This document shows positions 52,997 to 62,850 of a DNA stretch of 64,000 nt, in pieces. Below the pieces are notes generated by a model. That model made no database searches. It was not told the DNA's origin and worked only from the letters and a program-made list of their open reading frames with translations. The translations under genes were made by a program, and so were the position numbers. The DNA comes from Rhodococcoides corynebacterioides. Its GTDB lineage: Bacteria; Actinomycetota; Actinomycetes; Mycobacteriales; Mycobacteriaceae. The DNA is taken from assembly GCF_019834675.1 (NCBI RefSeq), contig NZ_JABUBU010000001.1:806001-870000 (forward strand). Reading direction: 5' to 3'. Each line of letters opens with the position of its first letter. The stretch's first letter is position 1.

Positions 52997-53035
52997 CCGC
53001 CGGGTGTCCCCGCCTCGCGCGGGGGCGCCCGGCGG
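52997..53035 (+). terminator. Strong terminator hairpin between hpf and secA
   Basis: A 17-bp stem (52997-53013 with 53019-53035; two G-U pairs, CTCGC loop) begins 21 bases after the hpf stop. It should separate hpf from secA transcription. No U-tract follows. Confidence 0.65.
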
Positions 53036-53177
53036 CGTCGTGTCGGCCGCACAGCGACCTGTCGGGCGCGGCGCCTACGATGGATGCGCCGAGGGTGCCG
53101 TGCACCCTCGGTGGAGTCGCGCTCACGCGGCGGCTCCGCCGGACCCCTGTACCCGAACCCGAGGACGAGTAAAGACC

Positions 53178-56126
<2,949 letters not shown>

Positions 56127-56900: not shown

Positions 56901-58325
56901 GTGGCCACCAGACTCACCACTCAGGATGCCTCGTTCTACTTTCTCGAGGCGGGGACCACGCCGATGCACGTGGGGTCGCTGGCGGTGTTCCGGACGCCGC
57001 GGGGCGGTTTCACCTACGACGAGCTGTTGACGCTGGTCGAGAGTCGACTGGCGCTGGTGCCGCGGTACCGACAGAAGGTGCGCGAGGTGGCCTTCGGGCT
57101 CGCGCGCCCGGTGTGGGTGGACGACCGCGACTTCGACATCACCTATCACATCCGCCGATCGGCCCTGCCCAAGCCGGGATCGACCGAGCAGCTCCACGAT
57201 CTGGTCGCACGGTTGACCTCGCGCCCCCTCGACCGGACCCGCCCGCTGTGGGAGATGTACCTCGTGGAGGGGTTGGCGCGCAACAGGTTCGCCATCTTCA
57301 CCAAGTCGCACTCGGCTCTGGTCGACGGCGACACCGCGCTCGAGATCAGCCAGGTGATCCTCGACGACGCCAAGTCGCCCCCGCCCCTGGCGGAGGAGCT
57401 GTGGATGCCGGCGCGGGAGCCGTCGGACAAGGCCCTGGTGGTCTCCGCGCTGGCGGAGATGGTCGCGCGGCCCGGTGAGGCGGTCGAGGCGGTGCGGGGT
57501 GCCGTCGGCGACGTCGCGCAGGCCGCCAACGGCGCCGTCCGGGCGGTGGCCAAGGTGGCGGCCGTGGTGCGCACGGCGGCGCTGACGGCCCCGACCAGCC
57601 CGCTCAACACCACCATCTCGCGGAACCGGCGTTTCTCGGTCGCGCGCACCGACCTCGACGACTACCGCGCGGTGCGTGCCCGGTTCGGCGGCACGGTCAA
57701 CGACGTCGTGCTCACCGTGGTGGCGGGGGCGCTGCGCAACTGGTTGCTCTCGCGGGGCGAGCCGCTCGGCCCGTACACCACGGTGCGCGCACTCGTTCCG
57801 CTCTCGGTGCACGCGCCCGCGGCGGTGGGCGAGGACACCGTGGGTCATCCGGCCGGTCAGGTGGAGTCGTTTCTGGTGGACCTGCCGGTGGGGGAGCCGA
57901 ACGCGGTGGTCCGTCTGTCCCACGTCGCGCACGCCACCGAGGCGCACGGTCGGCAGGGGCGCGGGGTCACGGCGTCGACCCTGATGAAGCTCTCCGGATT
58001 CGCGCCCGCCACGTTGCACGCCATGGGCGCCCGCGTGGGATCCAGTCTCTCGCAACGGATGTTCAACATCGTCGTGACCAACGTTCCCGGCCCGCAGTTC
58101 CCGCTCTACGCGGGCGGCGCGCGGATGCTCGAGATGTACCCGGTGCCGCCGCTGGTGCGCAATCAGGCGATGACCATCGGACTCACGTCCTACGACGGCC
58201 ACGTCTACTACGGCGTGAACGCCGACCGCGCCGCGATGCCGGACATCGACGTCGTCACCACCTTGCTGTACGAGGCGCTCGACGAACTCGTCGACGCCAC
58301 CTCCGACGGCAAGTCCGTCCGATGA
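56901..58325 (+). CDS. tgs3: WS/DGAT-family acyltransferase with HSxxxDG variant
   Basis: The protein has 474 residues, full-length for wax-ester synthase/diacylglycerol acyltransferases. The N-terminal signature DASFYFLEAGTTPMHVGSLAVF, PLWEMYLVEGL, and C-terminal GGTVNDVVLTVVAGALRNWL and NVPGPQFPLYAGGA are typical. The active-site HHxxxDG reads HSALVDG (His137, Ser138, Asp142), so the catalytic second His is Ser. The place between secA and the ferredoxin reductase corresponds to the tgs3 region (Rv3233c/Rv3234c). Activity is doubtful. GTG at 56901 follows GAGGGGG. Confidence 0.85.
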   Translation: MATRLTTQDASFYFLEAGTTPMHVGSLAVFRTPRGGFTYDELLTLVESRLALVPRYRQKVREVAFGLARPVWVDDRDFDITYHIRRSALPKPGSTEQLHDLVARLTSRPLDRTRPLWEMYLVEGLARNRFAIFTKSHSALVDGDTALEISQVILDDAKSPPPLAEELWMPAREPSDKALVVSALAEMVARPGEAVEAVRGAVGDVAQAANGAVRAVAKVAAVVRTAALTAPTSPLNTTISRNRRFSVARTDLDDYRAVRARFGGTVNDVVLTVVAGALRNWLLSRGEPLGPYTTVRALVPLSVHAPAAVGEDTVGHPAGQVESFLVDLPVGEPNAVVRLSHVAHATEAHGRQGRGVTASTLMKLSGFAPATLHAMGARVGSSLSQRMFNIVVTNVPGPQFPLYAGGARMLEMYPVPPLVRNQAMTIGLTSYDGHVYYGVNADRAAMPDIDVVTTLLYEALDELVDATSDGKSVR

Positions 58326-58344: not shown

Positions 58345-58866
58345 GTGAGGGTGTTCGTTCCCGCGACGACGACCATGCTGCGCACGCTGCTCGCGGACGG
58401 TGAGTTCTCGCCGATCTCGCGGACGGCGTTCGCGGTCACGCCGACGCTGCGCGAGGCCTACTCGTCCGGAGACGACGACGAACTGGCGGACGTCGCGCTA
58501 CGGGAGGCCGCCCGGGCGTCGTTGCGTCTGCTCGGCGGCGAGGAGCACGACGAGACCGACGGTGACGCACCCGCCCCGTCGGCGGCGCGTCGCGTCGTCG
58601 TCGCGGCGGACGTCGATCCGGTGACCCTGCGCCCCGATCTCGACGACGCGGTGGTGCGGCTGCCGCAGCCGCTGTCGTTGCGGGACGTCGCGTCGGTCCA
58701 CGTCGATCTCGCCGAGGCGGAGACCGCCGTGCGCGCGGCCGTGGAGGTGGTCGACGCCGCGGATCTCGGCGACGCCGACGCCGAGTTCGTCCTCGGCGAC
58801 GCCGAGGATCACGAGCTCGCCTGGTACGCACCGCAGGAGATTCCGTTTCTGCTCGACCTGATGTGA
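58345..58866 (+). CDS. DUF6912 family protein
   Basis: The protein has 173 residues. It is a small, acidic soluble protein starting [21 protein letters not shown] with conserved [20 protein letters not shown] and [17 protein letters not shown] near the end. It corresponds to Rv3231c; the function is unknown. GTG at 58345 lies 17 bases after the WS/DGAT stop, with GAAAGCGAGG between. It may form one operon with the WS/DGAT. Confidence 0.82.
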
Positions 58867-58922
58867 TCGGCTCGTCGCGGCCCGACGTCGAAACCGATCG
58901 ACGATTCGGGGACAATGGCCGC

Positions 58923-60038
58923 ATGGGATTGAAGGACTGGCTCGAGGCACCGGTGTCCGGGGCGGCCGTGCCGCGGCGGCCCGCGTTGAACGCGGTGCGC
59001 GGCGCACTGACCCGCATCACCACTCCGCTCATCCCCGACGACTATCTCCACCTGGCCAACCCGCTGTGGTCCGCGCGGGAGCTGCGGGGGCGCATCGTGC
59101 GCGTGGAGAAGTTGACCGACACGGCGGCCACGCTGGTCATCAAGCCCGGCTGGGGCTTCGACTTCGACTACCGACCGGGTCAGTACATCGGGATCGGGTT
59201 GCACGTCGACGGTCGCTGGCACTGGCGGTCCTACTCGCTGACCTCGGCGCCGGACTGGAAGGACAAGCAGATCTCCATTGCCGTGAAGGCGATGCCGGAG
59301 GGGTTCCTGTCCTCCCATCTGGTGGACGGCGTGAAGACGGGGACCATCGTGCGGCTCGCCGCCCCGAAGGGTGACTTCGCGCTGCCCGAGCCGCCGCCGG
59401 AGAAGATCCTCTTCGTCACCGCGGGCAGCGGCATCACACCGGTCATCGGCATGCTGCGCAGTCTCGACACGCGCGGGCACATGCCCGACGTTGTGCACGT
59501 GCACTCGGCGCCGTCGCGCGCGGACGTGATGTTCGGCGCCGAACTCGACGCGTTGCACGCGAAGTACGACTCGGTGGTCTCCCACGTGCAGTTGACGCGA
59601 TCGGACGGCAAGTTCGACCTGCGATCGCTCGACGAGCGGTTCCCCGACTGGCGCGAGCGGCAGACGTGGGCGTGCGGGCCGGTCGCGATGCTCGACGAGG
59701 TCGAGGCGCACTGGACCGAGGCCGGGGTGGCGGACCGGTTGCACACCGAGCGGTTCGAGATCGCCCGCACCGGTGCCGCCGAGGACGGCGGCACGGTGAC
59801 GTTCGCGCGGTCGGGCAGATCGGTCGAGGCGGACGGGGCCACGACCCTGCTCGAGGCCGGGGAGAGCGCGGGTGTGCGGATGCCGTTCGGCTGCCGCATG
59901 GGCATCTGCCAGACCTGCGTGGTGGCAGTGGCGGACGGACATGTGCGCGACCTGCGGTCGGGCAAGGAGCACACGCGCGGGGAGCGCATCCAGACCTGTG
60001 TGTCCGCGGCGGCGGGGGACTGCACCCTCGAGCTGTGA
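58923..60038 (+). CDS. Ferredoxin reductase-like FAD/2Fe-2S oxidoreductase (desaturase electron donor)
   Basis: The protein has 371 residues. Domains: FAD-binding ([15 protein letters not shown]), NAD(P)-binding ([26 protein letters not shown]) and a C-terminal plant-type [2Fe-2S] ferredoxin ([11 protein letters not shown] plus IQTC). It is the Rv3230c type, which passes NADPH electrons to the stearoyl-CoA desaturase DesA3. ATG at 58923 is preceded by GACAAT six bases upstream, a leaderless arrangement; a GTG at 58863 would add 20 non-conserved residues. Confidence 0.92.
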
Positions 60039-60248: not shown

Positions 60249-61514
60249 ATGGCGATCACTGACATTCTGGAATTCGCCCACCTGACCGACGAGGACATCG
60301 AGTCGTTCGGACGGGAGCTCGACGCCATCCGCCGCGACGTCGAGGAGTCCCGCGGACAGCGCGACGCGACCTACATCCGACGCACCATCGCGCTCCAGCG
60401 GTCGCTGGAGGTGGGGGGCCGACTCGCCATTCTGTGCTCGCGGTGGCGATCCGCCGCGCTGCTCGGCACCGGCCTGCTGGCCGCGAGCAAGATCATCGAG
60501 AACATGGAGCTCGGGCACAACGTGTCCCACGGTCAGTGGGACTGGATGAACGATCCCGAGATCCACTCGACCTCGTGGGAGTGGGACCAGACCGGTCCGT
60601 CCGACCACTGGAAGCGCGCGCACAACTACTCCCATCACACCTACACCAACATCGTCGGCATGGACGACGACATCGGCTTCGGCATCCTGCGCATGACGCG
60701 GGACGAGCAGTGGCGTCCGATCAACCTCCTGCAGCCGGTCGCGAACCTGATTCTCGCCCTGACCTTCGAGTGGGGGATCGCGCTGCACGATCTCGACGCG
60801 TCCAAGAAGGAGCGCGGGGTCGACCCGATGCAGCTCCTGTCCGAGCCCAACAAGGAGTTCGCCCGCAAGGTGGCGACGCAGGTGGGGAAGGACTTCGTGT
60901 TCTTCCCGGCCCTCGCCGGGCCGGCCTGGCGTCGGGCGATCGGCGCCAATCTCACCGCCAACGTGATCCGGAATCTCTGGGCCTACGCCGTCATCTTCTG
61001 CGGCCACTTCCCGGACGGCGCCGAGAAGTTCACGATGGGCCAGTTCGAGACCGAGACGCACGAGGAGTGGTACCTGCGTCAGATGCTCGGCAGCGCCAAC
61101 TTCCACGCCGGCCCCACCATGGCGTTCTTCAGCGGCAATCTCTGCTACCAGATCGAGCACCACATGTTCCCGGACCTGCCGAGCAACCGGTACCCGGAGA
61201 TCGCCGAGCGCGTGCGGCAGCTGTGCGACAAGTACGACCTGCCGTACACCACGGGTCACCTGCCCGCGCAGTACTGGAAGGCGCTGCGGACCATCTTCAA
61301 GCTGTCGCTGCCGGACAAGTGGCTGCGGCGGACCTCGGACGATGCGCCGGAGACCAGTTCGGAGCGCCGGTTCCACGGCCCGGCGTCCACCGTCGTCGAC
61401 CGCCTCCGCTTCGACCCGGTCACCGGACGCAAGCGTGGCCTGCGGTCGGCCATGCAGGAAGCACGGCGTGAGGCCCGCCGCGCTGTGAAGGCGCACACAC
61501 CTTCGGCACCGTAA
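60249..61514 (+). CDS. desA3: Membrane fatty-acyl desaturase, copy 1 (DesA3-like)
   Basis: The protein has 421 residues. The three histidine boxes are GHNVSH, HNYSHH and QIEHHMFP, which bind the di-iron centre. It corresponds to DesA3 (Rv3229c), the stearoyl-CoA delta-9 desaturase that makes oleate with the adjacent reductase. Two to three hydrophobic stretches surround the boxes. GGGAG lies before the ATG. The C-terminal tail is basic. The next gene is a close paralogue. Confidence 0.93.
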   Translation: MAITDILEFAHLTDEDIESFGRELDAIRRDVEESRGQRDATYIRRTIALQRSLEVGGRLAILCSRWRSAALLGTGLLAASKIIENMELGHNVSHGQWDWMNDPEIHSTSWEWDQTGPSDHWKRAHNYSHHTYTNIVGMDDDIGFGILRMTRDEQWRPINLLQPVANLILALTFEWGIALHDLDASKKERGVDPMQLLSEPNKEFARKVATQVGKDFVFFPALAGPAWRRAIGANLTANVIRNLWAYAVIFCGHFPDGAEKFTMGQFETETHEEWYLRQMLGSANFHAGPTMAFFSGNLCYQIEHHMFPDLPSNRYPEIAERVRQLCDKYDLPYTTGHLPAQYWKALRTIFKLSLPDKWLRRTSDDAPETSSERRFHGPASTVVDRLRFDPVTGRKRGLRSAMQEARREARRAVKAHTPSAP

Positions 61515-61596: not shown

Positions 61597-62850
61597 ATGG
61601 CGATCTCCGATGTCAAGGAATACGCCCACCTCACGGACGCCGACGTCGAGGCCATCGGCCACGAGCTGGACGCGATCCGCCGTGAGATCGAGGCCTCGCG
61701 CGGTGAGAAGGATGCGCGCTACGTCCGCAACACCATTCGCTTCCAGCGCACGCTCGAGGCGGTCGGCCGCACCACGATGCTGGCCAGCAACCACCGTGCG
61801 GCGTGGTGGGCGGGCAGCGCGATGCTCGGCGTCTCCAAGATCGTCGAGAACATGGAGCTCGGCCACAACGTCATGCACGGCCAGTGGGACTGGATGAACG
61901 ATCCGGAGATCCACTCCACCTCGTGGGAGTGGGACAACACCGGCCCGTCCGAGCACTGGAAGCAGACCCACAACTACATCCATCACAAGTACACCAACGT
62001 GCTCGGGATGGACGACGACATCGGCTACGGCCTGATCCGCGTCACCCGCGATCGCCGGTGGACGCCCTTCAACGCGGGCAACCTCGTCTACAACACGCTG
62101 CTCATGCTGCTGTTCGAGTACGGCGTGGCGGTGCAGCACCTCGAGCTCGGCAAGGTCGCCAAGGGTCGTGTCTCCAAGGAGGAGACGCGCCGCAAGCTCG
62201 CCGAGGTGGGCGAGAAGGTCGGCAAGCAGATGCTCAAGGACTACGCGCTGACCCCGGCGGTGTCGTCGTTGTCGCCGGCCGCGTCGTTCCGGAAGACGTT
62301 GACCGCCAACATCATGGCGAACGTCATCCGCAACGTCTGGACCAACGCCGTGATCTTCTGCGGTCACTTCCCGGACGGTGCGGAGAAGTTCACCCGCCAC
62401 GACATGAAGGACGAGACGCAGGGCCAGTGGTACCTGCGCCAGATGCTCGGCAGCGCGAACTTCGAGGCCGGCCCCGTGCTCGCCTTCATGAGTGGCAACC
62501 TCTGCTACCAGATCGAGCACCACGTCTTCCCGGATCTGCCGAGCAACCGCCTCGCGCAGATCAGCGTGAAGGTGCGCGAGCTGTGCGAGAAGTACGACCT
62601 GCCCTACACCACCGGGTCGTTCCCCGCGCAGTACGCCAAGTCCTGGCGCACCATCGCCAAGCTGTCGCTGCCGGACCGGTTCCTCAAGGCCACCGCCGAC
62701 GACGCCCCGGAGACCGCGTCCGAGCGGCGTTTCGGTGGCCACACCACCGCCGTGGTCGACCCGGCCACCGGTCGGCGCAAGGGCCTGCTGTCGGCCCTCG
62801 CCGAGTCGAAGAGCGGCCGCGGCCTGCGTGCGCGGTTCGGTCGCCGCTGA
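61597..62850 (+). CDS. Membrane fatty-acyl desaturase, copy 2 (DesA3-like)
   Basis: The protein has 417 residues and aligns with copy 1 over its whole length. Histidine boxes are GHNVMH, HNYIHH and QIEHHVFP. Differences are concentrated in the membrane stretch at about 60-80, the 140-200 region and the C-terminal tail. The copies may differ in chain length or regulation. GAGGAG lies seven bases before the ATG. It ends 38 bases before a 16-bp hairpin in rsgA. Confidence 0.92.
   Translation: MAISDVKEYAHLTDADVEAIGHELDAIRREIEASRGEKDARYVRNTIRFQRTLEAVGRTTMLASNHRAAWWAGSAMLGVSKIVENMELGHNVMHGQWDWMNDPEIHSTSWEWDNTGPSEHWKQTHNYIHHKYTNVLGMDDDIGYGLIRVTRDRRWTPFNAGNLVYNTLLMLLFEYGVAVQHLELGKVAKGRVSKEETRRKLAEVGEKVGKQMLKDYALTPAVSSLSPAASFRKTLTANIMANVIRNVWTNAVIFCGHFPDGAEKFTRHDMKDETQGQWYLRQMLGSANFEAGPVLAFMSGNLCYQIEHHVFPDLPSNRLAQISVKVRELCEKYDLPYTTGSFPAQYAKSWRTIAKLSLPDRFLKATADDAPETASERRFGGHTTAVVDPATGRRKGLLSALAESKSGRGLRARFGRR

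Follow-up and report, generated by a model that had tools for sequence, protein, structure and literature searches.

Repeated loss of the second motif histidine in a secA-linked WS/DGAT subfamily of actinobacteria

The gene described here raises the question of what a full-length WS/DGAT homologue does when the second histidine of its HHxxxDG motif is replaced by serine. It lies in a stretch of 64,000 nucleotides from Rhodococcoides corynebacterioides, hereafter called the window, and is listed with its neighbours in Table 1. Stoveken is said to have found in 2009 that both histidines are essential in AtfA, and loss of the second one should therefore abolish or strongly reduce acyl transfer. 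In relatives with solved structures or studied by mutation, as far as the available text of two papers goes, catalysis is credited to the second histidine, which operates on the reacting groups, and a structural role is ascribed to the first (PMC11948995, PMC7804268).

Table 1. Features of the window discussed in the text
Feature	Position	Strand	Evidence
SecA, conserved upstream neighbour	53004..56126	+	PF07517, NF009538; synteny
WS/DGAT homologue (Atf10/Tgs3-type)	56901..58325	+	474 aa, GTG start, no internal stop
PLW motif, residues 115-117, retained	57243..57251	+	P115 and W117 in 100% of HH and non-HH members
Active-site motif HSALVDG, residues 137-143	57309..57329	+	translation; alignment with 6chj and 7nxg
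TCG codon of Ser138, second-His position	57312..57314	+	alignment; HS in 37/37 congeners
ND motif, residues 267-268, retained	57699..57704	+	95% and 98% in non-HH members
DUF6912 protein (PF21853), conserved downstream neighbour	58345..58866	+	200.8 bits; synteny
Ferredoxin/flavin-type oxidoreductase, window's lineage only	58863..60038	+	PF00970, PF00175, PF00111
Fatty acid desaturase, window's lineage only	60249..61514	+	PF00487
Second fatty acid desaturase	61597..62850	+	PF00487

Domains, fold and motif of the window protein

The window protein gives full-length matches to PF03007 (1.3e-83) and PF06974 (5e-23) and reaches 492 bits against TIGR02946, for which the cut-off is 310. An AlphaFold2 model calculated from 97 sequences (mean pLDDT 84.6, with low confidence for residues 141-150, where the mean is 75) is closest to the Marinobacter WS/DGAT 6chj (Z 40.6, rmsd 2.3 over 345 aa); the Acinetobacter WS/DGAT 7nxg matches with Z 38.2, and AzeD, condensation domains, PapA5 and BAHD-type proteins follow. 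The BAHD-type matches include complexes of maize GL2 (9lpg, Z 18.2; 9uu3, Z 17.3). The protein resembles 6chj and 7nxg, to which it is 34% and 32% identical over aligned residues, in its fold and its PLW and ND motifs, but these two enzymes have HHxxxDG and the window protein has HSxxxDG. Its motif stands in the context K-S-H137-S138-A-L-V-D-G, and phmmer alignments with both structures pair H137 with the first histidine and S138 with the second. Both domains, the two-lobed fold and the PLW and ND motifs are those of a WS/DGAT; because the motif reads HSALVDG and the second histidine is absent, we class the protein as a WS/DGAT homologue and not as a canonical HHxxxDG enzyme.

A preliminary description made from the letters of this DNA had seen Ser138 in place of the histidine to which catalysis is attributed, in a protein otherwise full-length and well conserved and encoded by a secA-linked gene. 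All of this is borne out: by the alignment with 6chj and 7nxg and the TCG codon, by the available text of PMC11948995 as regards the role of the second histidine, by the two full-length domain matches and the retained PLW and ND motifs, and by synteny. Four PF03007 matches occur in the window's genome, namely the protein itself, a canonical HHSLVDG paralogue and two weak partial ones, and the nearest named matches of the window protein come from Rhodococcoides and Rhodococcus. The orthologue is present in 37 of 37 genomes of the genus and has HS in every one of them, which rules out a base-calling or sequencing error at Ser138, one of the outcomes that the preliminary description had named as undoing its claim.

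Loss of the second histidine across the secA-linked subfamily

A serine at this position was already in print. In R. jostii RHA1, the second histidine was noted in 2008 to be changed to Lys, Ser and Pro in Atf4, Atf10 and Atf14, respectively, and atf10 lies near desaturase genes (available text of PMC2667194). Since Atf10 (ro06332) shares with the window protein the motif with Ser, the length of 474 aa and the neighbourhood, it is the orthologue, and the serine by itself was thus already known. In the accessible part of that paper Atf10 is the subject of one sentence, with no assay and, unlike the analysis presented here, no His-less subfamily; on the recurrence of such losses in bacterial WS/DGATs, searches of an open-access library yielded just this sentence. 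The gene is the actinobacterial WS/DGAT orthologue that has been passed on vertically next to secA and is called Atf10 in R. jostii, and the new part is the recurrent, clade-wide loss of the second histidine with conservation intact. The preliminary interpretation is supported in part; it overlooked both the printed serine of Atf10 and the recurrence throughout the subfamily.

From named genomes the 80 best of 566 loci were taken as relatives, and the second histidine is found in none of the 80. In this set most Rhodococcus and the Nocardia have Ser at the position; Gln is seen in all 28 mycobacteria and all 5 Pseudonocardia, Glu in Lolliginicoccus, and Ala in R. marinonascens as well as two Aldersonia. 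In wider samples, a WS/DGAT search that included paralogues matched 128 of 150 genomes of the order and 83 of 148 of the class. The dereplicated set contained 143 sequences, and a tree was built from it without the motif columns. The window protein groups with the secA-linked WS/DGATs (the Atf10/Tgs3 subfamily, 107 members), which a branch with a support of 89, unstarred, separates from 36 paralogues. Alignment of the secA-linked homologues at position 138, as had been suggested in the preliminary description, revealed HH in 43 of the 107 dereplicated members, all actinobacterial relatives, and a missing second histidine in 64, where it is replaced by Q (22), S (16), P (9), E (6), A (4), R (3) or, once each, N, L, Y and C.

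HH is present in 36 of 36 paralogues and the second histidine in 38 of 38 control PF03007 proteins from outside the subfamily (L269-L306), so that all 74 PF03007 proteins read from beyond the subfamily retain it; as some of the 38 controls are near-duplicates and Atf4 and Atf14 of RHA1 are not among the placed proteins, loss outside the subfamily is to be considered rare, not absent. One WS/DGAT paralogue, L289, exhibits the reverse change: its motif reads KFSHTLSDG, with the first histidine gone and the second present.

Parsimony gives 12 changes of the second histidine on the 143-row tree or 13 on a 112-row tree calculated with a mixture model, and 15 or 16 losses if the residue was never regained, counts that are approximate because weak support is common among the inner branches (on the 143-row tree, 46 of 140 are open). 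Seven pairs of second-histidine change lie on well-supported separate paths of the 112-row tree. A fitted model put the rate of histidine gain near 0 and the ancestral state at HHxxxDG together with a patatin gene. The trees and the model show that the second histidine was lost many times from a reconstructed HHxxxDG ancestor. Twelve of the 29 genomes chosen for a further test have exactly one PF03007 match; this single protein is His-less in ten (five with Q, two with S and one each with P, A and C) and has HH in two. The His-less protein is no spare copy.

By gene order, and in agreement with the preliminary description, we take the window locus to be orthologous to the Tgs3 locus (Rv3234c plus Rv3233c) of M. 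tuberculosis, and from this position we infer that the window gene corresponds to Tgs3 of that organism. Rv3233c (196 aa) and Rv3234c (271 aa) are a single 469-aa gene, Mb3262c, in M. bovis, and the gene is marked as full-length in two other columns of the accessible comparison (PMC2277376). The split, which the preliminary description had read as a hint of relaxed or altered function, is lineage-specific and therefore gives no general hint of this kind. According to a review, available in part, HHxxxDG is present in all 15 M. tuberculosis genes (PMC3503283); the 28 HQ mycobacterial loci, among which the M. tuberculosis sequence is not represented, make this statement doubtful for the Tgs3 locus. 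Apart from being split in H37Rv, Tgs3 differs from the window gene by reported activity: the accessible text of another review lists Tgs3 (Rv3234c) among the four most active M. tuberculosis DGATs in E. coli lysates (PMC9578982). Under multiple stress 10 other tgs genes are described as rising, and Rv3233c and Rv3234c as the two that are repressed (PMC2698117, available text).

Constraint and gene neighbourhood

On the subfamily tree, position 137 underwent no change and position 138 underwent 27, so that chance is not an issue for the loss of the second histidine. With these 27 changes on 107 rows, position 138 ranks at the 59th percentile when all columns are compared; not one change fell on P115, W117, E118, K135, H137 or R243, and D268, N267, D142 and G143 changed 2, 5, 7 and 8 times. 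D142 is kept in 86% of His-less compared with 98% of HH members, and the corresponding values for G143 are 83% and 81%; judged by these columns, D142 is slightly freer in His-less members and the rest is held. In L064 (R. tukisamuensis) the motif reads HSALVGD, with both the second histidine and the order of DG altered.

Since P, L, Y, R and E all occur at position 138, conservation of one particular chemistry is impossible at this site, and R. marinonascens (L066) has Ala within the Ser clade. The proposal of Ser138 as a new nucleophile was rejected in its general form because residues vary freely at the position, with Ala in L066; from this pattern, Ser138 is no special new catalytic residue. 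The alignments show a site 138 that is no longer constrained, within a fold and structural motifs that are strictly conserved under purifying selection.

dN/dS was determined according to Nei-Gojobori for 21 pairs, from 206 sequences after the paralogues L234 and L251 had been set aside. For the window gene and its two nearest species the values are 0.050 and 0.053. Other HS pairs range from 0.009 to 0.061, except for a nearly identical pair with 0 and a more distant one with 0.119; HQ pairs lie at 0.018-0.172 and HH pairs at 0.113-0.263, a comparison across classes that is rough because the HH pairs are more distant. The window gene is clearly under purifying selection, which contradicts the relaxed function considered in the preliminary description. 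Thirteen candidate columns were tried with independent pairs for a residue compensating the loss. Among the columns listed none was consistent: 140L came nearest (4.5 same versus 0.6 opposite of 7 pairs, median p 0.22, not significant), and 344H (0.4 of 7) and 264C (0.0 of 7) showed no consistent change.

In the window, the gene is flanked by secA upstream and the DUF6912 gene downstream. Among subfamily loci with enough flank, DUF6912 accompanies 73 of 86 and secA 49 of 80, values that miss some neighbours owing to 6 kb flanks and an identity-based search (L192 was scored without DUF6912, yet has it). Broken down by motif and again counting loci with enough flank, secA lies upstream of 10 of 25 with HH and 39 of 55 without the second histidine; for DUF6912 on the downstream side the corresponding values are 25 of 28 and 48 of 58. 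Reductase and desaturase genes accompany 21 of 56 His-less loci, all 21 belonging to the window's lineage, and none of the 25 HH loci. The two desaturase genes of the window stand in tandem behind the ferredoxin-type reductase gene; in several relatives outside Rhodococcus, both desaturase queries match a single desaturase gene at the corresponding location.

HH members have a gene for a patatin-like phospholipase (PF01734) between the acyltransferase and DUF6912 genes (e.g., L149, L151, L153, L158, L164, L168 and L169). It was counted in the 105 of 107 rows with enough flank and is present in 26 of 32 HHxxxDG members; where HH is kept but DG is broken the count is 2 of 9, and among His-less members it is 8 of 64. 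The association is strong with rows taken as independent (Fisher p 8e-9). It was not confirmed when the tree was taken into account, neither by independent pairs (1.2 versus 0.1 of 7) nor by a Pagel-type likelihood test (p 0.22), and is a lead only. The acyltransferase and the patatin lipase may be an ancestral pair.

Possible functions of the His-less proteins

The best reading, to which we assign a probability of about one half, is that the gene encodes a maintained acyltransferase-fold protein that would have been released from His-dependent acyl transfer. A gene so carefully kept in mycobacteria and many soil bacteria despite recurrent loss of the histidine probably has a different or a histidine-free job; position 138 accepts almost anything and the framework is frozen, which points to a selected function that no longer depends on His-based acyl transfer. 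Such a pseudo-acyltransferase would still fold and bind acyl-CoA or lipid between its two lobes. This binding might be the way in which it acts, with the protein serving as an acyl carrier or buffer, for instance, or else it might modulate a neighbouring lipid enzyme, in the window's lineage the adjacent desaturase/reductase set, and Ser138 would have no special role of its own. As His-less members of other lineages do not share the association with desaturase genes, one common partner is unsupported.

The most likely form, a lipid- or acyl-CoA-binding pseudo-acyltransferase, would have a precedent in the same fold in maize GL2. The GLOSSY2/CER2-like BAHD proteins have the HxxxD acyltransferase fold and serve as partners of an elongase in lipid synthesis, and complementation of cer2 by GL2 does not require the HXXXDX motif to be intact (PMC11269236, available text). 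They differ from the window protein in their plant origin, their single-His motif and their established elongase partner, and the likeness, at Z 17-18 in the fold comparison, is one of analogy only. The reading as a pseudo-acyltransferase is favoured by the lack of the second histidine in 64 of 107 members versus 0 of 74 other proteins, the 7 well-supported separate paths, the low dN/dS and the 10 of 12 single-PF03007 genomes. Counting against it are the reported lysate activity of Tgs3, the conservation of the substrate-tunnel motifs, which fits an enzyme equally well, and, in the accessible text of the respective papers, an active HQxxxDM condensation domain (PMC11546977) and the trace activity retained by RzmA H140V (PMC7804268).

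These points would suit an acyltransferase that works without the second histidine, with proximity and orientation in the tunnel (substrate-assisted attack) being enough at a low rate or with a more reactive acceptor. The Tgs3 activity reports (PMC9578982; table of PMC3503283) speak for it, but concern lysates and a 271-aa half protein and come via reviews available in part. PLW, ND, K135 and D142 are mostly retained, and in available text on condensation domains, where base or positioner is a matter of debate, the second histidine has been argued to position the substrate and not to act as base (PMC7804268, PMC11546977). The HQxxxDM domain in question, ORF18 of streptothricin biosynthesis, belongs to the same superfamily as the window protein and has likewise replaced its second histidine naturally; unlike the latter, it is an active NRPS condensation domain, and its Gln contributes to activity (PMC11546977, accessible part). 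On the other hand, P, L, Y, R and E should not be equally tolerable beside a reacting carbonyl, and there is the reported need of AtfA for both histidines. A weak His-independent enzyme is a serious, if less probable, alternative.

That the invariant H137 took over as general base, or supports a different reaction, we consider improbable. H137 is indeed found in 107 of 107 subfamily members and other WS/DGATs can lose the first histidine, as in L289 and, according to available text, in Rv2484c and TrWSD4/5 of T. roseum (PMC5513132) and in the archaeal motif NHxxxDG (PMC11948995). It is, however, just as invariant in the members that keep the second histidine and in the 36 paralogues, the first histidine is described as structural (PMC7804268, PMC11948995, accessible text), and in none of the candidate columns listed does a residue change consistently after the loss on independent paths. 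The use of the first histidine, offered in the preliminary description, is thereby weakened. Decay of the window gene or an error in its sequence, for which the split locus of M. tuberculosis H37Rv and the likewise missing DG part of some subfamily members might speak, is refuted for the window's genus and practically without a chance, given HS in all congeners, a dN/dS of about 0.05, a full-length open frame, strictly conserved motifs and a His-less protein as the single PF03007 protein of 10 complete or near-complete genomes.

Returning to the pseudo-acyltransferase, we tentatively suggest, with some way to go before we would call it probable, that an ancient syntenic actinobacterial protein of the acyltransferase fold may have become a non-catalytic lipid- or acyl-CoA-binding partner in some fifteen lineages, including the mycobacteria, where 'triacylglycerol synthase 3' would be a pseudo-enzyme, and that loss of the downstream gene for a patatin-like lipase out of an ancestral operon tended to accompany this transition. 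The matter bears on whether mycobacterial Tgs3 counts as a TAG synthase at all. If the second histidine can be dropped with function kept, the subfamily offers natural experiments on its role across the HHxxxDG superfamily. In several genomes the protein is the only PF03007 member, and a knockout there would give a clean answer.

As to the downstream neighbour, 148 of the 150 genomes sampled from the order contain DUF6912, as a rule with one match each, and the WS/DGAT search matched 128 of 150; DUF6912 as an obligate partner was rejected. A model of the DUF6912 protein (pLDDT 95.9) gives only weak matches, to chains of tRNA 2'-phosphotransferase and of the ADP-ribosyltransferase fold (Z up to 7.3; Foldseek E above 0.3).
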